Shown here: positions 4,857-27,686 of the stretch, one piece after another
Layout of the letters: every line of letters starts with the position of its first letter
Numbering within the stretch: the stretch's first letter is position 1
Virus record (IMG/VR): IMGVR_UViG_3300021246_000048
Coordinates: 1-30,810 of that record
Origin: a virus
Direction: 5' to 3' (one strand)
DNA: 30,810 bases
Program-made: the position numbers and the translations under genes
The notes under the pieces: generated by a model
Database searches by the model: none
What the model was told of the DNA's origin: nothing
The model's input: only the letters and a program-made list of their open reading frames with translations

Positions 4857-7169
4857 ATGATTTTAGAAAAACAAAAAGAAGCAAACATTTTACAACAAGG
4901 AGAATCACAAGATTCAATTGGAATGTCACTAGACTTAGATTCTGCACAAATATTGATGCAGATGTTAAGTAAGAATCTATATTCAGATTCAATAGGCTCA
5001 ACTATTAGAGAATGCGCAAGTAATGCTCTAGATAGTCATAGAAGAGTTGGTGTAGATAAACCCATAGTAGTATCATTTAGTAGAAACGATAGTGATAACT
5101 ATGAGTTTTCAGTAGAAGATTTTGGTATTGGCCTTGATGCTGATGATGTAAAGAACATCATTAGTAAATATGGTAAGTCTACCAAGCGAGATAGTAACAC
5201 AGAATTAGGTATGATGGGTCTTGGTTTCAAGGCCCCTCTTGCTTATTCATCTAGTTTCTATTTTGTATGTAGAAAAGATGGAATAGAACGTAAGTATATG
5301 ATGTATGAAGGAGAAGATGTAAATACAATTGATCTATTATATGAACAATCAACAACAGAGAGTAATGGTGTTAAAGTGATTGTTCCTGTTAAATGGCAAG
5401 ATAGAAGTGATTTCATCAATAAGATAAATGAGCAGCTTGCTTATTTTGAGAATGTTTATTTCAATGTAGAAGGAATCAATAATGATTTCCTAATCCATAG
5501 AAATGATATATTCCAATTCTCAGAACTATCTAAAGAAAATGAATTACATATCTGTCTAGACAATGTTTACTATCCTTTAGATTTTATTAAGCTTGGTATA
5601 GATAGAATAAAGATTCCTATTGGTCTTAAGTTTTCTTTAACTGATGGGTTGTTTCCTACGCCTAATAGAGAATCTTTGCGTTATACACAAGAATCTAAAC
5701 AAATCATTCTTGATAAAATAGCAAAGCTTGCAGATTATATGATTGAGAAATACAATGATTCAATTACAAGTTCTGCAGACATCAACACTGTATTTGATTA
5801 TTATTCTAATTATACTAAAACAGTTAACATTATTGGTAATGGTAATTGGGAAATAGAGAATCTTTTGAAATTCTCTGTGTTGAAAATTAAAGAACCAAAG
5901 GTTGATGGAATTGAACTTCTTGATTTGAAACTTCTACATAAGAATAGAGATTATATTTTTGGAGAATACGAGGTTATGTATTTTCTAGAAAGAGATAAGA
6001 TGAGAGAAGCTAAGAACTATTGGAATAAGAAACTTACAGCTTCTAATGCTGGAGATAAATGTTATTTGTTTACAGGAGTTCTTGGATCAAACAAGCGTGT
6101 ATACATGAGAGAAACTCTTGCTACAAAATCTTGGGGAAGTCCTACATACAATTTTGTTAAGAAAAAGGCAGAATACAAACTAGGAGATAGATCTTCTACA
6201 GGAATGACTACATATTTTGAGATTCTTAATCTTGGCTTACATCCAAAGACTGAATGGAGACAGAGAATTACAGAGTTTCAATCTATTCAAAACATGTTTA
6301 TTAGTAAGATGCAAAATCTTGATGATGTTGTTATTCCTAAATCTTGGCTTGATGCTCGTAAGACTGTGAGAACCAAAGGAATGTCAACTACAAGAGTGGA
6401 TGATAATGGTAAGCGTATCATTAAACTACAAGGAGAAATTGTAGGTAAGATAGGTGTAGATCTAGAAAGATACAATGATGGTAGAAAATGTAAGTTTGTT
6501 CCTGTAACAAAGAAATTGAATGAAGTTCCTAGAGAAAAGAATTTGATTATATATGCTCATCATGATGACTATCTAAAATTAGATCCATTGTATGAAATCA
6601 TGGCTAAACAACCAGTTAAAATCATGACTTTCTCATCTAGAGAAATGAACATACTAAAAGACTTAGAGATTCACAATTTAATTACTTATGACAAATTTAT
6701 GGAAGGAGAGACTAAAACATTTAAAAGAATAATTACAGCTCATTTAATTTACAATCTTGTATACAAATACAAAAATACATTTAACAACATGCATAAATTG
6801 AAAGGTGTATGTACAAATCTTTATGATAAACTTGAATTATTAGATGTATATCAAAAACGTAACTATACACATTCTAGTTATGAAGTGTTTGCAGCAATGC
6901 TAACTGTTGCTGAAGAGCACAACTTGTTTGATCATGAAATTTATCATGTATATAATGAAATGAAAGATGTATTTGAAAAACTTCCTTTCTTAAATGCACT
7001 AATGGCTTATACAGGAGGTTATGCTAGTAATATAGAAGTGATTGATTCTATTGTAGATCTTATGAAGTATTACAAGTTTAAAGTAGATCTTGATAGATAT
7101 AACTTAAAGCTTGATGAAGAAATAGCATCAGAATTAACAGAAGAGCTAATCGATGAATTGGCAAATTAA
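4857..7169 (+). CDS. rIIA: rIIA-like protein with GHKL ATPase domain
   Basis: The N-terminal ~250 residues form a GHKL (Hsp90/histidine kinase/MutL) ATP-binding domain. The N box is IRECASNALDS (Glu52, Asn56, Asp59), the G1 box DFGIG (residues 88-92), and the G2 region LGMMGLGFKAP (118-127). Phage T4 rIIA and its relatives carry this domain and act in lysis timing and exclusion of other phages. The remaining ~500 residues are a large alpha/beta region without motifs I recognise. Length (770 aa) is close to T4 rIIA. The following gene is rIIB-like, which supports the assignment. A strong terminator follows the stop. Confidence 0.8.
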   Translation: MILEKQKEANILQQGESQDSIGMSLDLDSAQILMQMLSKNLYSDSIGSTIRECASNALDSHRRVGVDKPIVVSFSRNDSDNYEFSVEDFGIGLDADDVKNIISKYGKSTKRDSNTELGMMGLGFKAPLAYSSSFYFVCRKDGIERKYMMYEGEDVNTIDLLYEQSTTESNGVKVIVPVKWQDRSDFINKINEQLAYFENVYFNVEGINNDFLIHRNDIFQFSELSKENELHICLDNVYYPLDFIKLGIDRIKIPIGLKFSLTDGLFPTPNRESLRYTQESKQIILDKIAKLADYMIEKYNDSITSSADINTVFDYYSNYTKTVNIIGNGNWEIENLLKFSVLKIKEPKVDGIELLDLKLLHKNRDYIFGEYEVMYFLERDKMREAKNYWNKKLTASNAGDKCYLFTGVLGSNKRVYMRETLATKSWGSPTYNFVKKKAEYKLGDRSSTGMTTYFEILNLGLHPKTEWRQRITEFQSIQNMFISKMQNLDDVVIPKSWLDARKTVRTKGMSTTRVDDNGKRIIKLQGEIVGKIGVDLERYNDGRKCKFVPVTKKLNEVPREKNLIIYAHHDDYLKLDPLYEIMAKQPVKIMTFSSREMNILKDLEIHNLITYDKFMEGETKTFKRIITAHLIYNLVYKYKNTFNNMHKLKGVCTNLYDKLELLDVYQKRNYTHSSYEVFAAMLTVAEEHNLFDHEIYHVYNEMKDVFEKLPFLNALMAYTGGYASNIEVIDSIVDLMKYYKFKVDLDRYNLKLDEEIASELTEELIDELAN

Positions 7170-17227: not shown

Positions 17228-17508
17228 TGGGAAATTTAATTGGAAATAGAATATTCTTAGAACTACCTAAGAAAGAAGAAAGTAAACTTATTGTAGATGA
17301 AAATACAAAAGAAGCTTTAGAAAAAGAAATGTTAAAGAAAATGAATAAACTAACTATTCATAGTGTAGGTGATACAGTGACAGTTCTTAAAAAAGGAGAT
17401 GTTGTATTAGTGGATCCAGCAGTGTTACAAAGAGCACCACTAGTTCCTCTATCAGAAGAAGAAACAGTTATGTTAGTTTCTCCTTTTGATGTTATATATA
17501 AATGGTAA
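17227..17508 (+). CDS. GroES-like co-chaperonin candidate
   Basis: This 93-aa protein has the size and strand order of GroES. Near the N-terminus, NRIFLELPKKEESKLIVDENT corresponds to the first strands and the start of the mobile loop. HSVGDTVTVLKKGDVVLVDP corresponds to the GxGDxVxxGDxV core, and VMLVSPFDVIYKW to the closing strand (family: ILREDDILA). GroES caps GroEL and aids folding; T4 encodes its own (gp31) to fold its capsid protein. Sequence identity is low, so this is a moderately sure fold call. It lies just before the glycan cassette. Confidence 0.6.
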   Translation: MGNLIGNRIFLELPKKEESKLIVDENTKEALEKEMLKKMNKLTIHSVGDTVTVLKKGDVVLVDPAVLQRAPLVPLSEEETVMLVSPFDVIYKW

Positions 17509-17509
17509 C

Positions 17510-18271
17510 ATGGAACAAAAAAAAGTAGGTATTGTAATTCTTGCAACCAATGCATATTTTGTATTAGGTGTGAATTTTATGAGAAAGTTTTTGCATCATT
17601 ATAAAGGTGATGCAAAAATTACTTTTTACTTCTTCTCAGATGAAGATCCTTCTGCATATATATCAGAAGATGCAAATGTTGAATACCATCCTGCTCAACA
17701 TAACAATTGGGTAGATGCTACAAATGATAAATTTAGAAACATAATAAATCTTGCAGATTGCGATAGTGATTATCTCTACTATTTTGATGCAGATACTAAT
17801 GTATCTAAAGACTTCACTGAAGAATGGTTCATTGGAGATTTGGTAGGTGGAGAACACTTTGGTAATAAAGGTTGGTTAGCTAATGGAGCTGGTTTTGATA
17901 AAAATCCTAAGTCTAAAGCTTATGTACCAGCAGACACTAACTTACCTTGCACATATCATTATGGTGCATTCTTTGGTGGCAAGAAAGAAAAGGTGATAGA
18001 CTTTTGTAAGACACTTAGAGAATGGCAATTGGAAGATAAAAAAATTCCTTATGAGCCAGGAGTGAACGATGAAAGTTATATCAATGCTTATTTTCATTAT
18101 AATCCTCCTATGACAGTGTCATGTGCAAATTTTGCTTTTGATATTAGCCATAAAGGTGGAATAGGTGAAACTAGAAACACTAAATTAAACGTTTCTCATC
18201 TCAAAGAAGAAATGCTTAAACATAAAAATGATGTCTATAATATAAATGGAGGTAAAGTATGTCTAATTTAA
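17510..18271 (+). CDS. GT6-family (ABO-type) glycosyltransferase
   Basis: This 253-aa protein matches GT6, the family of mammalian ABO and alpha-1,3-galactosyltransferases and some bacterial and phage enzymes. The metal-binding DxD is FDADTNV (residues 93-95), and HYGAFFGGKKEKVIDF (150-165) is the family's YxGxFFGG motif. NDESYINAYF (186-195) matches HDESHLNKYF, which carries a key catalytic Glu. It transfers a sugar from a nucleotide sugar, retaining anomeric configuration. The start at 17510 directly follows the upstream stop; a TTG or ATG slightly upstream would overlap and is less likely. The downstream acyltransferase overlaps by 13 bases. Likely substrates are host surface glycans or phage virion sugars (inference). 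Confidence 0.85.
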   Translation: MEQKKVGIVILATNAYFVLGVNFMRKFLHHYKGDAKITFYFFSDEDPSAYISEDANVEYHPAQHNNWVDATNDKFRNIINLADCDSDYLYYFDADTNVSKDFTEEWFIGDLVGGEHFGNKGWLANGAGFDKNPKSKAYVPADTNLPCTYHYGAFFGGKKEKVIDFCKTLREWQLEDKKIPYEPGVNDESYINAYFHYNPPMTVSCANFAFDISHKGGIGETRNTKLNVSHLKEEMLKHKNDVYNINGGKVCLI

Positions 18272-20425: not shown

Positions 20426-21049
20426 TTAAATGTTTATATTTTTCCAAGTCTTTCCTCTATGAATATCTTTTATAGAGTAGTAACTAAGTTCAAGTTTATC
20501 TGCTACCTGTTTAGGAAGAAGACCACTTGCTAATTGTTTTTTAATTTCAATTACTTGTTCTTCTGTAAGCTTGGCCATTTTGTGAGAAGCTCCACTTTTC
20601 CAATTCTTTGATAAATTTTCTAAATGTTTACTTCTATAGTCATCATCTTTCCAATTTTCTTTTTGGGATATAGATTTTTTAAGTCTGACTTCTTCTGTTC
20701 TTTTGATTCCAAGATTACTTCCAGCAATTTTAGCAATGTTATAAGTAGGATTTAAACTATCTATATAACTTTGCTCAGTCTTTAGTATTTCTTCAGTAGA
20801 ACATTCACATAAAATTTCAAATGTAAAGTTATCTTCTCCATGTTTATTAACTGCTCTAATTAGTTTTACACAAGTATTTCTAACAGAACGTATATCATGA
20901 ATATGAGTATAATATCTTTTTATCAAATTGTTTGTACTTCCTATGTAGAATTTACCATCAATCTGATTAGTAATTTTATAAACAACTCCTCCTTTCTTTT
21001 TTTGAGAAAAGTATTTTTGTTTATGTTCATTACTAATATCTAATATCAT
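20426..21049 (-). CDS. GIY-YIG homing endonuclease
   Basis: This 207-aa protein has an N-terminal GIY-YIG nuclease domain: VVYKITNQ and KFYIGSTNNLIKRYYTH (residues 22-50, with Arg45), then the family Glu in TEEILKTEQSYIDSLNPTYN. A basic linker (KKSISQKENWKDDDY) resembles NUMOD repeats, and the last ~40 residues (QVIEIKKQLASGLLPKQVAD, then YYSIKDIHRG) form an HTH DNA-binding end. It is a free-standing mobile endonuclease of the Seg type. Its start overlaps the stop of the upstream small basic gene by four bases, and it is followed by the DUF6321-like gene. Confidence 0.87.
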   Translation of the reverse strand: MILDISNEHKQKYFSQKKKGGVVYKITNQIDGKFYIGSTNNLIKRYYTHIHDIRSVRNTCVKLIRAVNKHGEDNFTFEILCECSTEEILKTEQSYIDSLNPTYNIAKIAGSNLGIKRTEEVRLKKSISQKENWKDDDYRSKHLENLSKNWKSGASHKMAKLTEEQVIEIKKQLASGLLPKQVADKLELSYYSIKDIHRGKTWKNINI

Positions 21050-21842: not shown

Positions 21843-22352
21843 TTACTTCTTTTTAACAGACATTCCTCTCTTAGCCATTTTTGTAGCTCCAAGTTGTTTG
21901 TCTTTAGTAAGAGAAGCTTTTCCTTTAGCACCAGCTAATGCTTTCTTTTGAACAGCTGTATATGCTCCTTTAGGATCTACAGGACCAACTCTTTTGTTTG
22001 ATGCTTTAAGTCCAGTTAGACTTCCACCATTTCTCATTTTCTTTTTAACAGGACCACCATTCTTTTTAGCCATAGCAGATAATACTTTGTCTGCTTTTTT
22101 AGTAGGTTTTCTATCAGGATCATATCCAGTAAGAAATGAACCTGCAGCTTTAGCAGCTTCTCCTACAGTAGTATTTTTTACTTTATTAATAGTATTACTA
22201 ACTGCATCTTCTCCTGATTTAAGTAATTTTTTACCTAAATTTTTTGCTTTCTCAGGAACATCTTTAAGTTTTGTACTAGAGATTTTTTCCATTGTTGATT
22301 TAGGTGCTTGTTTAAGCATTGCTCCTTTTTGAGCCTTTTTAATTGTTGCCAT
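21843..22352 (-). CDS. 169-aa lysine-rich protein, unknown
   Basis: It begins MATIKKAQKGAMLKQAPKST, sharing an 'IKKAQ.G' start with the 183-aa neighbour. The C-terminal part has KKNGGPVKKKMRNGGSLTGL, then KRVGPVDPKGAYTAVQKKALAG and a basic tail KRGMSVKKK. The Gly-Lys repeats and few hydrophobic residues suggest a flexible, basic virion-associated protein. It follows the NUMOD-type endonuclease on the minus strand by 23 bases. Confidence 0.6.
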   Translation of the reverse strand: MATIKKAQKGAMLKQAPKSTMEKISSTKLKDVPEKAKNLGKKLLKSGEDAVSNTINKVKNTTVGEAAKAAGSFLTGYDPDRKPTKKADKVLSAMAKKNGGPVKKKMRNGGSLTGLKASNKRVGPVDPKGAYTAVQKKALAGAKGKASLTKDKQLGATKMAKRGMSVKKK

Positions 22353-22375: not shown

Positions 22376-23011
22376 TTAACAATAATGTCTTATAGGTGTA
22401 TTATTCTTTCTTTGTCCAGAAAGTTTTTCATATAATTTTTTGTAGCCTGTATTTTTTATACAATCAGCAATAGATTCATATATTATATTAGTATCTGTAT
22501 CTATTACTTTTTTACTTACAGGAGTAGGTTTACCAAACCAAGGATTTCTAGTTCCTGTTGAAGTCAGTCTTAATTTTTCTCTAGTTTCTTGAGAAGGTGA
22601 TTTACCTTTTTTAACATCACTCATCTTTTGTATTGTTTCTTTTGAGTGATTTTTTCCAAACCAATAACCTTTTTCACCTTTTTGTCTTTCAGACATTTTT
22701 AATATATAATCTTCTGATCTTTTTATACCAGGAGTACCTTCTCCACCATCAGTAAAGTTTATAAGAGTTCCTTTTCCTAAATCTTTTCTACCATATAGAG
22801 CGATAAACTCTTTCTCTTTTAAACAAGCATCTTCCCAAGTTAAATCATCTAAAATTATTTCTACTTCATAAGAAGTTTTATTTACAATATTTTTCCAATA
22901 AGTACTTCTATTAGCTTTTATTTTACATCTCTTATAAGTATCATCATTAGCTATTCCAATGTAAAAAACTTCATTTTTATCAAGTCTTATATGTCTATAA
23001 AGATATGCCAT
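22376..23011 (-). CDS. GIY-YIG homing endonuclease with NUMOD3 modules
   Basis: This 211-aa protein has an N-terminal YLYRHIRLD/FYIGIAND pair (residues 3-23), a GIY-YIG variant. Next come two NUMOD3-like units (KMSERQKGEKGYWFGKNHS, then KMSDVKKGKSPSQETREKLR) and a NUMOD1-like HTH near the C-terminus (YESIADCIKNTGYKKLYEKL). This modular order is that of free-standing homing endonucleases. The first residues differ from the enzyme at 20426-21049, so they are separate arrivals rather than a recent duplication. It overlaps the preceding 67-aa gene by one base. Confidence 0.82.
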   Translation of the reverse strand: MAYLYRHIRLDKNEVFYIGIANDDTYKRCKIKANRSTYWKNIVNKTSYEVEIILDDLTWEDACLKEKEFIALYGRKDLGKGTLINFTDGGEGTPGIKRSEDYILKMSERQKGEKGYWFGKNHSKETIQKMSDVKKGKSPSQETREKLRLTSTGTRNPWFGKPTPVSKKVIDTDTNIIYESIADCIKNTGYKKLYEKLSGQRKNNTPIRHYC

Positions 23012-23214
23012 TATTTTTCAATATGTCTTCCAAATGTAATATTTGATTTAACCTTTATGTCACGATGACAATATTGCCACATCTCACCTGTAGTGTTTAT
23101 TATAATTGTATAGATGGTATCAGTCTCATGACCATAATCTGTCACTAACCATATTACCCCATCTCCCTTGGGTGTTGTAACATCTATCCTATTTTTAGGC
23201 TCGTATATTCTCAT
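23011..23214 (-). CDS. 67-aa small phage protein, unknown
   Basis: A compact beta-rich protein (start [39 protein letters not shown]). It has the look of small SH3-like phage proteins, but I cannot name a family. It is squeezed between two homing endonucleases with overlaps of one and four bases, so its neighbours may have inserted around it. Two His and one Cys are scattered with no metal-site pattern. Confidence 0.6.
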
Positions 23215-23783
23215 AGAGAAGTGCTTAGATTATCTACATCTGGTTCTTGGTATTTATTTGATTTTTTTAAATTATCAATTTTCCAAAGAGGTTGTAGATT
23301 TGTATAATGACATAATTTTAATATGTCTTCTTCTGTTTTAGCAAAAGATATTGGTATTATATGATCTATATGCCATTCTCCATGATTTTCTAAAGTCATT
23401 CCTTTGTCAAATTTAGATTTTAAATAATCCATAAAATCAATTATTGAACATCCTAAAATAATCTCTGATTTTTTACTTTTAATTTTAGATCCTTCACATG
23501 CTCTTTTAAAAGAAGCATATATCAGATGTTTTGTAATATGTGAAAATTTAAAAACTTTATCTTTTTTGAATCTGTCGTTAAAATAATTTTTAGCATACTC
23601 AGATCTTTTTAATCTATTTATTTGATTATATTCTTTATCATAATTAGATTTTTGCTCTTTAGTTTCAAGTCTGTATTTTTTATCACAAGATTTACACTGA
23701 AATTGCAAACCATCTTTTTTACGTTTATCTTTCACAAAACAAGATAATTCTTTTTCTATTAAACATTTTGAGCAAGTTTTCAT
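23211..23783 (-). CDS. HNH homing endonuclease
   Basis: This 190-aa protein has an N-terminal zinc ribbon ([13 protein letters not shown]) and a basic helical middle. The C-terminal HNH core reads [14 protein letters not shown], followed by [16 protein letters not shown]. The HH/N/N-K positions of the HNH fold are present (His-Ile-Asp-His, Asn in NLQPL, Asn-Lys). The zinc ribbon plus HNH order is common in phage mobile endonucleases. It is the third such gene in about 3.4 kb. It overlaps the 67-aa gene by four bases. Confidence 0.82.
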
Positions 23784-24386: not shown

Positions 24387-24815
24387 TTATGACAATGTTA
24401 ATAAATATAATGTTTTTGCTGCATCTCCAGAAAGACCTTGTGCTATATTTTCTATATCAGGCATATTGTTTGCCTCTGCATATTCTTCAAGTTCTTTAGC
24501 AAAAGATTTTAGATCTAATACAACAGATTTAGGAAGACCTATAGAATAATCTCTGAGCATGTCATGCTTTGTAGCTTTAGGACGTGTGCCTGTATAACCC
24601 ATAATCTTCTCTACAATATCATCTTTGTAATCAAACACTTTATCATATAGTCCACCAAGAGCTTGGTGTTCTGCATAACTAGTAGTTTGCCAATGTATTA
24701 AATGTAATTGATCTACAAAATGTGTAAGCTTAGCAGCTATGCTATCTAAGTTTAATGAATTTCCCATTGATGATGAATTCAACATATCTTGAGGAAATAA
24801 TGATTTAATTGCCAT
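24387..24815 (-). CDS. Dps/ferritin-like protein (DUF5856-like)
   Basis: This 142-aa four-helix protein resembles Dps. LIHWQTTSYAEHQALGGLYD (residues 39-58) carries His41-Trp42 and His50, and DIVEKIMG follows with Asp65 and Glu69. In Dps the ferroxidase ligands are His, His, Asp, Asp and Glu. His50, Asp65 and Glu69 keep the spacing of E. coli His63, Asp78 and Glu82, but the Asp four residues after the second His is Gly54, and the first loop is shorter. It may therefore not be an iron oxidase. I associate the pattern with DUF5856, found in Bacteroidota phages. The role in the virion or host is unknown. Confidence 0.7.
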   Translation of the reverse strand: MAIKSLFPQDMLNSSSMGNSLNLDSIAAKLTHFVDQLHLIHWQTTSYAEHQALGGLYDKVFDYKDDIVEKIMGYTGTRPKATKHDMLRDYSIGLPKSVVLDLKSFAKELEEYAEANNMPDIENIAQGLSGDAAKTLYLLTLS

Positions 24816-24832: not shown

Positions 24833-25009
24833 TTAAGGAGCAGCAGTTGTTGTACTAGTGGTAGTAGGATTACAGCACTCGTATGCTGGAACCTCTTGCC
24901 ATTTACCCACTTTAGGTTTGTTTTTACGTAATATAAGACTACTAGGTACAATTCTACCTGTACCATCAAATCTAACATATGCTTTTAGTGGTCTGTTATT
25001 AGTTGCCAT
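24833..25009 (-). CDS. Short paralogue of the next gene with Thr-rich tail
   Basis: The frame starts at the minus-strand ATG (25009). The translation begins MATNNRPLKAYVRFDGTGRI and ends AYECCNPTTTSTTTAAP. Residues 7-47 closely match the N-terminus of the 136-aa gene just upstream in transcription (LKAYxRFDGTGRIVP, LRxNKPKxGxWxE, AYECCN), then diverge into a Thr/Ala/Pro tail. It looks like a tandem duplicate that lost its C-terminal domain. The Thr run could be a flexible linker or an O-glycosylation site (inference). It is probably structural. Confidence 0.7.
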   Translation of the reverse strand: MATNNRPLKAYVRFDGTGRIVPSSLILRKNKPKVGKWQEVPAYECCNPTTTSTTTAAP

Positions 25010-25022
25010 GTTGTATATTTAT

Positions 25023-25433
25023 TTAATCTGCAACAACATCAAAAGTTAATGTTCCTACAGGACATAATGCAGTTTTTTGTGCACCACTCATTACTAATTG
25101 AATAATTTGAGCACTAGGATTAGAGAAAACACCTAATGCGTTAAATGTATCATTTAATATATTAACTACATCTGTAGCATTAGCTGAATCCCTTGGTGTA
25201 TACATATAGTTTATCTGTGTACCATTGCAAAATAGACGCAGTGTAACATCATTAATTGATACATCAGGCATGTTAAATGTTAATGTTACATCATTACAAC
25301 ATTCATATGCTTGAGTTTCTTTCCAATTACCATTCTTAGGTTTATTACGTCTAAGTACAGTACTTCCTGGTACGATTCTACCAGTTCCATCAAAGCGAGA
25401 ATACGCTTTTAAGTCACGTTTGTTTGGTGTCAT
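25023..25433 (-). CDS. 136-aa virion protein candidate, long paralogue
   Basis: The N-terminal ~47 residues (LKAYSRFDGTGRIVPG, KTVLRRNKPKNGNW-like and AYECCND) match the short gene downstream. The remaining ~90 residues are a beta-rich domain (VTLTFNMPDVSINDVTLRLF and PVGTLTFDVVAD). The strand-heavy C-terminus suggests a structural or host-interaction domain. The N-terminal module may be an attachment unit shared by both copies. It lies between a glycosyltransferase gene and its short copy. Confidence 0.6.
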   Translation of the reverse strand: MTPNKRDLKAYSRFDGTGRIVPGSTVLRRNKPKNGNWKETQAYECCNDVTLTFNMPDVSINDVTLRLFCNGTQINYMYTPRDSANATDVVNILNDTFNALGVFSNPSAQIIQLVMSGAQKTALCPVGTLTFDVVAD

Positions 25434-25438
25434 TTTAT

Positions 25439-26455
25439 TTAATAATTAAGTTTATATTTATTTTTTAGTTCATTTAGTTTACTTGCATAGAACCATGTGC
25501 AATATTTTTTTGATTGTTCATTATTAAGAATCATATCTAAGTTAGGATCTTTTGTTGGATCACTTCCCATGTGATATTTACCTTTATAGAAAGCTGGATA
25601 TCCATTACCTGTCTCAGACACTATTCCTGCATTATGAAGAATTGTATGTGTTTCTAGTTTTTTAATTGGGTCTGTGCTCCAAGCAAATGCTAGTTCAGGA
25701 ACCACCCTTGTTTCTTGATCTCTTAACCATAAGTTCCAAAGAACAGCCCACATATCTGCGCACCAACTTTGAAACCCTGAGTTTTCATCTTTAAAGAATT
25801 CTCTATTCACTTTTTGTAAATAGGTTCTAATAAGAATACAATCGTTCATCACCTTGCTCCAGTAATAAGCATCTACATTTTTTAATAAATATTGAGCTCC
25901 TCCTGAATGATCATTGTTAGCTTCAGCTATTTCTCTGCTTATTCCAACAACACTTGCTATCTCTCCAAGAATATCTCTTGTTTTATATTCTTCTAGTTTT
26001 TCTGGTAGCACTTGATGTATTTTACTATCAAAATACTTAGCGTTAATATAACTGTTTGTATCTGATAGGTAGTTTATATCATCTTCTAAAAACTGATCAA
26101 GGTTAAACTCTTTTGTAAAGAGAATATCTGAATCACAATAGAACATTGCATTTGCGCTCATCATTGGATTTTCTTTAAAGAACCTCCAAAGAACATATGG
26201 TCTGAGAACTGGTATATATATACCTAATAGTTTTGATACATCATCTTCGTCTTCATAGAAGTGAAACTCAGCTTCTGGATATAGATCAACTACCTGTTTC
26301 CATTTTTCATTCTTAGCTCTTCCTTTAGGGCTAAAGATTAAACTAATTGCTTTATCACTGTGCCCTATTTCTTTAAGACTCTCAAGCCATAAATGAACTT
26401 GCCATGTGTAATAAACATCATCAGGACAAGCCTGAATAAATTTCAATTCTTTCAT
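25439..26455 (-). CDS. Glycosyltransferase, GT-A type, candidate virion modifier
   Basis: This 338-aa protein has a GT-A layout. After an early alpha/beta region (DKAISLIFSPKGRAKN), MFYCDSDILF (around residue 105) gives the metal-binding DxD. HSGGAQYLLKN and HNAGIV are further motif-like segments of GT-A enzymes that modify proteins or glycans. The exact family is uncertain; GT77- or GT8-like and Ser/hydroxyproline galactosyltransferases share this layout. It lies between structural genes, two of which carry Thr-rich tails, so a virion-glycosylating role is attractive but unproven. The start follows a CCAACTACATT leader. Confidence 0.65.
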   Translation of the reverse strand: MKELKFIQACPDDVYYTWQVHLWLESLKEIGHSDKAISLIFSPKGRAKNEKWKQVVDLYPEAEFHFYEDEDDVSKLLGIYIPVLRPYVLWRFFKENPMMSANAMFYCDSDILFTKEFNLDQFLEDDINYLSDTNSYINAKYFDSKIHQVLPEKLEEYKTRDILGEIASVVGISREIAEANNDHSGGAQYLLKNVDAYYWSKVMNDCILIRTYLQKVNREFFKDENSGFQSWCADMWAVLWNLWLRDQETRVVPELAFAWSTDPIKKLETHTILHNAGIVSETGNGYPAFYKGKYHMGSDPTKDPNLDMILNNEQSKKYCTWFYASKLNELKNKYKLNY

Positions 26456-26499
26456 AATGTAGTTGGTTTATTATATTATACTTTTGTGTACTTATTAGT

Positions 26500-26646
26500 T
26501 TATGGTGCTAAAGTAGTAGTAGTAGTTGTAGTAGTAGGACAGCTTCCTGTACACATTTGAGTATTTAACCTATCAAGTTGTCTTGATATCTCCCATAAAA
26601 GATTAGACTCTTGAGACCAACCTATTTGTTTGTTTGGTATTGCCAT
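26500..26646 (-). CDS. 48-aa short paralogue ending in an eight-Thr run
   Basis: The minus-strand frame starts at 26646. The translation begins MAIPNKQIGWSQESNLLWEI and ends MCTGSCP, eight Thr, LAP. The first ~28 residues match the start of the upstream 221-aa gene (xRQIGWSxESNLLxxIxxQLxxL). It then lacks that protein's body and ends in the Thr run, much as the 24833-25009 gene does. The Thr codons are a trinucleotide repeat at DNA level, so length may vary between relatives. It could be a minor virion protein or a decoy or attachment peptide. Confidence 0.65.
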   Translation of the reverse strand: MAIPNKQIGWSQESNLLWEISRQLDRLNTQMCTGSCPTTTTTTTTLAP

Positions 26647-26661
26647 TGTTCTTTTATATTA

Positions 26662-27327
26662 TTAGTTATAAACTCTTATTTCAAATGTTACAGCATATTG
26701 TAAATCAGTACTACTAGTTATTATGTCATCTTCATAAGACCCACTGGCTGTTCCTGTATATATCTCTAAAAAAGTTGGTTGTGCCTTTGTATCAAGAGAA
26801 CAAAGCACTCTCATTGTTAAAAGATCTACACTATTATTTGATTTAGTATTAACTGTATCACTTATAAAAACAGTGGTTTTGTTTATTGTAAATAAATCAT
26901 CAGAATAACATCTATATTTACCTGCTGATTTATATGCAAACCATATATTCCCAATAGTGTTTTCTAACACTGTAACTATTGGTGCACCTTCATTCCATAC
27001 TAAAGATATACTCCCAGTTACTGGTAGTGTACCAGCATTTGTACAAACAAAATAAGTTCCTACATTACTGTTAGGTGCACCAAAAATTGTTAAATCAGCA
27101 TTTTCAGAGTTAACATTTATTAAGTATGTAATACCTAAATCTAGAGAATCTCCTTGAGTTTTCTCGTTAAATACATCCCCACCAGTCTGTGTTAATAAAG
27201 CTGTATACACTTTATATTTAGGTTTTAACCCAAACATGATTGATGTTAATTTGTTAAGCTGTTTTAATATTTGATATAATAAGTTTGATTCATTAGACCA
27301 ACCTATCTGTCTTGAAACTTGTGCCAT
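26662..27327 (-). CDS. 221-aa virion protein candidate, long paralogue
   Basis: The N-terminal ~30 residues (RQIGWSNESNLLYQILKQLN) match the 48-aa gene downstream. The rest (YKVYTALLTQTGGDVFNEKT, then beta-rich Asn/Gly/Thr/Val segments to the TFEIRVYN end) is a Thr- and strand-rich domain of the kind found in phage tail or baseplate fibres. No catalytic motif is seen. It is probably a structural protein of the tail or head surface. It is the first gene downstream of the membrane protein gene on this strand. Confidence 0.6.
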   Translation of the reverse strand: MAQVSRQIGWSNESNLLYQILKQLNKLTSIMFGLKPKYKVYTALLTQTGGDVFNEKTQGDSLDLGITYLINVNSENADLTIFGAPNSNVGTYFVCTNAGTLPVTGSISLVWNEGAPIVTVLENTIGNIWFAYKSAGKYRCYSDDLFTINKTTVFISDTVNTKSNNSVDLLTMRVLCSLDTKAQPTFLEIYTGTASGSYEDDIITSSTDLQYAVTFEIRVYN

Positions 27328-27338
27328 TTTATGTTTTG

Positions 27339-27686
27339 TTATATTATTAGTAAATAAATTATCGATGCTACTATTCCTCCATATGCTCCTGCATATATAT
27401 CTAAATAGTCAAATGGTATCTCATATTTAGATTTGTAATTGTAATACCATTCTCTTGACCAGTTAATAGCATATGCTTCAAACCATCCTATTAATATATA
27501 AACCCAAACAGGTCCTCCATCAAAGTACATGAAATAGTATGCAAATATAAAAGAAGCTAATACAATAACTAATGATAAAGAAAAATGTAGGTATCTGCGT
27601 TGTTTAAAGAAATCTTTGAAGAATATCTGTGGAAAACTTGTAAAGAAAGTTGACATAGTTTTCAATAACGCTATAAATGTACTCAT
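27339..27686 (-). CDS. Small membrane protein, candidate lysis or entry factor
   Basis: This 115-aa protein has a basic N-terminus and three hydrophobic segments: LVIVLASFIFAYYFMY around 36-51, WVYILIGWFEAYAI around 59-72, and AYGGIVASIIYLLII at the end. Between the second and third is WSREWYYNYKSKYEIPFDYLDIYAG, resembling a 'DxxDIYAGxxG' pattern of small phage and bacterial membrane proteins. A lysis role (holin or similar) is possible. It is preceded by a TATCTTTG box, so it may head its own transcript. Confidence 0.5.
   Translation of the reverse strand: MSTFIALLKTMSTFFTSFPQIFFKDFFKQRRYLHFSLSLVIVLASFIFAYYFMYFDGGPVWVYILIGWFEAYAINWSREWYYNYKSKYEIPFDYLDIYAGAYGGIVASIIYLLII

Follow-up and report, generated by a model that had tools for sequence, protein, structure and literature searches.

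A predicted glycosyltransferase and poly-threonine protein tails occur together in phages: a probable O-glycosylation system for phage surface proteins

The DNA analysed here, below called the window, is the 30,810-nucleotide viral record IMGVR_UViG_3300021246_000048, in which a gene for a 338-amino-acid (aa) predicted glycosyltransferase sits between two pairs of genes for small proteins. The members of each pair share an N-terminal segment (head A in the 136- and 58-aa proteins, head B in the 221- and 48-aa proteins), and the short member ends in a run of threonines (Thr). An earlier reading of the letters alone (below, the original prediction), from which the 338-aa gene was absent, had proposed that this design, shared by two otherwise unrelated heads, is selected; our findings agree, and what unites the two heads is the Thr stretch, whose occurrence follows that of the predicted glycosyltransferase. 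The co-occurrence of enzyme and poly-Thr is nearly perfect and spans phages of two bacterial phyla (Bacteroidota and Firmicutes), with repeated joint gain and loss. We think it very probable that the locus is a phage-specific O-glycosylation system for the phage's own surface proteins, in which poly-Thr is the acceptor tag.

Results

The enzyme and poly-Thr proteins are encoded side by side in diverse phages

IMG/VR was searched with the 136- and 221-aa proteins, which gave 34 loci, and counts for the window's clade were taken over 70 non-redundant relatives. All 70 of these loci encode the enzyme and at least one poly-Thr protein with head A or B, and their gene order is conserved as head B - enzyme - head A, typically with B upstream and A downstream. 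A protein with a third, unrelated head and long Thr/Ser linkers adjoins the enzyme in Chryseobacterium phage MA9V-3, and at the distant IMG/VR loci L125-L132 and L139 (L numbers are our locus labels) a Thr-rich protein is encoded directly upstream of it. In Lactobacillus phage 521B the protein beside the enzyme has PTTVKPTT repeats. Poly-Thr forms the C-terminal tail of major tail proteins, head proteins or both, or else of a small protein encoded just upstream, in Enterococcus phiFL1A and vipetofem, Lactococcus 1706, Lactobacillus iLp84 and Semele, and Arcanobacterium TPWB06; the major tail protein of Lactococcus phage 1706, for example, ends TTTTTTTTTTHHD. In a set of 46 loci from bacterial genomes, every Firmicutes prophage locus with a readable enzyme open reading frame (ORF) has a Thr-tailed protein (31/31), in 30 cases within 0-70 bp upstream of the enzyme gene, and a thirty-second Firmicutes locus, L195, is tailed too (32/32). 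The predicted glycosyltransferase is thus encoded with structural genes: it adjoins major tail or head genes in the Firmicutes phages and lies between the headed proteins in the window's clade.

Some loci appeared at first to have no poly-Thr neighbour. Of these, L339 and L367 have poly-Thr elsewhere in the genome, L122-L124 and L134 have it at another place in the record, and L121 has Thr-rich sequence directly upstream of the enzyme in another frame. This L121 stretch (5153-5900) is out of frame with the preceding ORF, by a sequencing error or a frameshift. Separately, the label "major tail protein" is attached in NC_047926 (Semele gp075, L145) and NC_028783 (iLp84 gp8, L148) to largely poly-Thr proteins of 115-125 aa, and is probably a mis-annotation arising from low-complexity matches.

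Enzyme and tail are gained and lost together

Do the enzyme and the Thr tail also come and go together on one protein? Homologues of the major tail protein (MTP), a candidate acceptor, were gathered with a profile that excluded the tail and was blind to the enzyme, and counts were made over non-redundant loci with enough downstream sequence. The MTP carries a poly-Thr tail at 17/17 enzyme-positive loci and at 0/50 enzyme-negative loci (Fisher p=3e-16, a value inflated by relatedness), and other proteins encoded in the same MTP loci behave in the same way, being Thr-tailed at 18/18 enzyme-positive and 1/56 enzyme-negative loci (the exception, L217, is taken up in the Discussion). Because relatedness inflates the Fisher value, an MTP tree was used as well. 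On it the enzyme and tail labels change 9 times, always together; its starred branches give only 4 independent pairs, a number at which a sign test cannot reach significance, so that the tree adds repeated concordance and not a p-value. Among named phages, phiFL1A and R3.3 have the enzyme and the tails, and both are missing at this locus from 11 relatives (six Javan/315.6-type streptococcal phages, P9, Bassarid, phiJL-1, ATCC8014 and 049ML001).

The window's own clade contains two records, L020 (114,968 bp) and L335 (70,521 bp), that keep heads A and B and have no enzyme gene. The string (ACN)6, six threonine codons in a row, is found zero times in the entire records of both, an absence limited by possible incompleteness of the records, and is present in 22/22 enzyme-positive records, with 5-50 overlapping matches in each, all on one (the coding) strand; the reversed control pattern gives 0-4 matches per direction in the same records. 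The short head-B protein of L020 is 36 residues long and its tail is gone. A head-B protein at L335:4342-4983 has a poly-proline linker (GPAPGPPPPPPPA); in enzyme-positive relatives a similar domain is preceded by poly-Thr instead, and it looks as though one stiff linker, presumably glycosylated, had given way to another. In L346 and L363 another family member, 30% identical, fills the enzyme's slot, and the Thr tails are kept.

An enzyme of this type might act on some other target, such as phage DNA or a host surface glycan, with poly-Thr being kept for an independent structural reason. Phage glycosyltransferases that act on DNA and others that modify the host serotype are known (PMC12619734), and cellular homologues of the enzyme without poly-Thr exist. 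We nevertheless regard another target as very unlikely, given that enzyme and tail are gained and lost jointly both in the MTP homologues and in the window's clade, and given that the enzyme adjoins a tailed gene in unrelated gene contexts.

The 338-aa protein has a predicted GT-A fold

Residues 5-320 of the 338-aa protein match the hidden Markov model of phrog_4417, a family of unknown function (E=1.9e-57), which all 15 members of a diverse alignment of homologues match as well. The AlphaFold2 model has a mean pLDDT of 91.4, and VIA-align comparisons of this model gave Z scores of 14.9 with glycogenin-1 (root-mean-square deviation 3.5 over 230 residues), 14.3 with LgtC and 13.1 with GlyE; Foldseek gave E 9e-7 with glycogenin. 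The GT-A fold is thus that of a predicted model and not of a solved structure. Close relatives of the enzyme are 52-86% identical to it, and D108 and D110, which form a DxD motif, are invariant in 22 close and 15 diverse homologues; H274, G277 and K291 are also invariant in the diverse alignment. In GT8 enzymes DxD together with HxxG...K makes up the metal and nucleotide-sugar site, and the invariant DxD, His-x-x-Gly and Lys may form such a site here. Even with matches accepted up to E=1, none of the 15 members was recognised by a GT8 model of Pfam or NCBIfam, and Pfam, NCBIfam and PDB sequence searches supplied no name for the enzyme. By its model, then, the enzyme is GT8-like in fold, and it is not filed as GT8 because no GT8 model hits it. 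Members of the family were counted in 74 records of sequenced phages and in hundreds of viral contigs, and prophage bIL285 of laboratory strain IL1403 also encodes a homologue. The cellular homologues, from Chitinophagaceae and Sphingobacteriaceae (L152, L157, L160 and L162), are longer, at 480-590 aa.

Heads A and B are modules with exchangeable C-termini

The 136- and 58-aa proteins are identical at 33/47 residues of head A (70%, E=1e-24) and the 221- and 48-aa proteins at 17/31 residues of head B (55%, E=9e-11), so that the long and short heads are paralogues and not exact copies. Between the 58-aa gene and its counterparts in L009, L016, L018 and L022 the 47 head codons show 16-22 synonymous and 3-9 non-synonymous differences, and this mainly synonymous change indicates selection on the protein. 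The same comparison for the 48-aa head gives a weaker signal (6-11 synonymous and 8-11 non-synonymous). The short genes of the original prediction are therefore real and conserved as proteins, most clearly in the case of the 58-aa gene, and short copies with Thr tails are present in relatives.

Each IMG/VR locus encodes several paralogues of each head with quite different C-termini, which may be Thr tails such as (TTTTTTTxAP)n, a Thr linker followed by a domain (Fib_succ_major and BspA-type leucine-rich repeats (LRR) are among these in relatives), or unrelated domains without Thr. Over the 70 loci the Thr run is terminal in 69, internal in 22 and missing in 32 of the head-A proteins; for head-B proteins these numbers are 49, 24 and 49. 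The long-then-short order that had been singled out as a design is frequent for head B (29/50 adjacent pairs) and rare for head A (8/45), and in 44/65 relatives the head-B gene closest upstream of the enzyme encodes a protein that ends in a Thr tail. Since headed genes vary in number and order, to the point that L043 and L049 have short forms only and L102 and L103 longer ones only, the window shows one of many arrangements and no design rule.

The original prediction had further suggested that the short forms compete with or cap the long forms in assembly, the Thr tail then being a spacer or stop. The two forms do share a head and are encoded close together, and they may occupy the same kind of site in one structure. 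The loci with only one form, the varying order and number, and the frequent use of the Thr run as an internal linker speak against it, and capping accounts neither for the genome-wide loss of Thr runs with the enzyme nor for the same tails on unrelated major tail and head proteins; we judge it very unlikely.

Could the Thr stretch instead be a recombination seam whose main role is to shuffle C-terminal domains between heads? The C-terminal domain of the 221-aa protein, which ends IRVYN, is also found behind other heads in relatives: such domains occur behind head B with or without a Thr linker, and a Thr linker also joins one to the third head. Many tails, however, are themselves the end of the protein, their codons are scrambled (below), and a seam predicts no coupling to a glycosyltransferase. 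As the explanation of poly-Thr it is highly improbable, and such recombination may be a secondary consequence.

Neither head has a match among 50,697 phage records. A PDB fold search with the 136-aa head-A protein (model pLDDT 84) gave no confident match, and BFVD returned only uncharacterised phage proteins; the same protein has a weak match to the tail protein family phrog_9983 at residues 43-121. The 221-aa protein has no Pfam hit and a weak phrog_15243 match. Adhesin-type domains behind the same heads and the nearby tail-type PHROG matches suggest that the headed proteins of the window are probably virion-surface components.

The Thr runs are maintained as amino acid sequence

Runs of ACN codons resemble triplet repeats at first sight, and the original prediction had allowed that the tails might be unstable artefacts or untranslated. 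Codon counts over 309 Thr runs are 852 for ACA, 817 for ACT, 409 for ACC and 31 for ACG; adjacent codons are identical at a frequency of 0.3506, where 0.3511 is expected at random, and 0/309 runs use a single codon. Such random mixing argues against a slippage artefact and, as far as codons can tell, points to selection on Thr at the amino acid level. Together with the occurrence of tails in relatives, the confinement of (ACN)6 to one coding strand (5-50 against 0-4 reversed matches) and the purifying selection on the 58-aa head, it leaves an unstable microsatellite or a non-translated artefact with next to no probability. The tail ends of unrelated proteins are identical in 15/42 within-genome pairs, compared with 6% between genomes, which may reflect copying of tails or a preference of the enzyme.

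Layout of the locus and neighbouring genes

All four ORFs of the two pairs are present on the minus strand (Table 1), and the only (ACN)6 string in the window lies within the 48-aa gene. The DUF5856 gene that marks the end of the cluster keeps its position in nearly all relatives.

Table 1. Coordinates of features at the head A/head B locus of the window
Feature	Position	Strand	Description
115-aa neighbour upstream of head-B cluster	27339..27686	-	hydrophobic; same position in L006, L008, L019
Head-B long protein, 221 aa	26662..27327	-	~30-aa head (RQIGWSNESNLLYQILKQLNKL) and C-terminal domain ending IRVYN
Head-B short protein, 48 aa	26500..26646	-	head and CP-T8-LAP tail (...CPTTTTTTTTLAP)
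Eight consecutive Thr codons, ACT/ACA mixed	26512..26535	-	predicted glycosylation acceptor tail of 48-aa protein
Predicted glycosyltransferase, 338 aa	25439..26455	-	phrog_4417 (unknown function), GT-A/GT8-like predicted fold
DxD codons D108-S-D110 of 338-aa enzyme	26126..26134	-	D108 and D110 invariant in homologues
Head-A long protein, 136 aa	25023..25433	-	47-aa head and beta-rich C-terminal domain without Thr run
Head-A short protein, 58 aa	24833..25009	-	head and CCNP-TTTSTTT-AAP tail (...CCNPTTTSTTTAAP)
TTTSTTT codons	24845..24865	-	predicted acceptor tail of 58-aa protein
DUF5856 protein, 142 aa, downstream of head-A cluster	24387..24815	-	PF19174, E=4.5e-13; marks cluster end

The UvsX-like, RIIA/RIIB-like and DNA primase genes that the 30.8-kb window also carries make it probable that it is one piece of the genome of a large tailed phage; records related to it are as large as 110-117 kb. 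A second predicted glycosyltransferase (17486-18271, plus strand, phrog_3317) possibly performs a further step of the same pathway. Downstream of the DUF5856 region the window (21843-22352) and the equivalent regions of L335, L339, L346 and L367 have arrays of small Lys-rich proteins (for example, 169 aa, MATIKKAQKG...KKK) that could be basic virion or DNA-binding proteins. Homing-endonuclease-like genes lie on the minus strand at 20426-21049 (PHROG match) and, judged by appearance only, at 22376-23011 and 23211-23783.

Discussion

The reading that we favour, glycosylation of poly-Thr on the phage's own proteins, would work as follows. The GT-A-fold enzyme would move a sugar from a nucleotide-sugar onto Thr residues of the poly-Thr tails and linkers, most likely in the cytoplasm before or during assembly. 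Heads A and B would be virion-anchoring modules, the short proteins (a head plus a Thr tail) would be minimal glycosylated decorations, and in the longer relatives the Thr run would form a stalk coated with sugar, with an adhesin-like domain such as Fib_succ_major or BspA-type LRR at its end. The benefit might be shielding, stalk rigidity or adhesion. L140, L141 and L142, other loci of the same phages, hold further, different Thr/Ser-rich proteins with longer stalks; if these too were modified, the acceptor set would be genome-wide.

Several observations weigh against this reading. A 105-aa protein of the enzyme-negative phage L217 (1992-2309) ends in poly-Thr, possibly a relic of recent enzyme loss, and the enzyme-negative records of the window's clade number only two. 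In Lactobacillus brevis phages such as 521B spaced PTTVKPTT repeats take the place of long runs, which would mean that the acceptor need not be poly-Thr in the strict sense, and in L122-L124 and L134 the nearest poly-Thr is elsewhere in the record and not adjacent to the enzyme. No poly-Thr gene adjoins the long cellular homologues of Chitinophaga, Sphingobacterium and Mucilaginibacter, and no Pfam or NCBIfam glycosyltransferase model matches the enzyme family convincingly.

How does the locus compare with known systems? In mycobacteriophage virions glycans are present on the C-termini of capsid and tail-tube subunits (Freeman et al. 2023, cited in PMC12619734) and are proposed to shield against anti-phage responses. 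The likeness is the C-terminal modification of virion proteins, which is here predicted from sequence; the differences are the unannotated GT-A/GT8-like phrog_4417 enzyme, the poly-Thr tag on unrelated proteins, and the Firmicutes and Bacteroidota hosts, the mycobacteriophage enzymes themselves not being part of the comparison. A search with the enzyme family gave no significant hit in mycobacteriophage records. With the GT8-type enzymes glycogenin, LgtC and GlyE the phage enzyme shares a predicted fold over nearly its full length, the DxD motif and possibly, in its invariant His-x-x-Gly and Lys near the C-terminus, a further signature, but it is only ~8-12% identical to them in structural alignment and is encoded in a neighbourhood of phage structural genes. 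Serine-rich repeat adhesins of Gram-positive bacteria have a low-complexity stalk of hydroxy amino acids, a dedicated glycosyltransferase encoded alongside and an adhesin domain at one end; the phage systems resemble them in all three respects, whereas they are phage-encoded, have short Thr tails (7-8 residues or a few repeats) and have no dedicated secretion genes that we noticed. Phage tail-fibre families combine a conserved N-terminal anchor with variable C-terminal domains, much as heads A and B are conserved, carry exchangeable C-terminal domains and occur as several paralogues per genome; many head-A and head-B members differ in consisting only of an anchor and a Thr tail. No description of poly-Thr tails with this enzyme was found in the full-text literature searched, a scope that mostly leaves out subscription papers and preprints, so that a prior description is possible. 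As far as that literature shows, virion glycosylation is known as a kind; what is new is the enzyme family, together with its poly-Thr tag and its hosts.

We give an even chance to the stronger proposition that the tag is portable, that is, that about seven terminal Thr suffice for glycosylation by phrog_4417 enzymes, a family that occurs in phages of different bacterial phyla and whose members can give way to distant ones in the same slot. If true, this would make the Thr run a natural O-glycosylation tag of minimal size for proteins synthesised in the bacterial cytoplasm. Glycosylation of poly-Thr would give the unannotated phrog_4417 family a testable function, would account for poly-Thr on the major tail, head and decoration proteins of phages, and would point to a pairing of a short tag with an enzyme for O-glycosylation in the cytoplasm. 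It would also allow phages with glycosylated virions to be predicted, a matter of interest for phage stability, immune recognition and adhesion.

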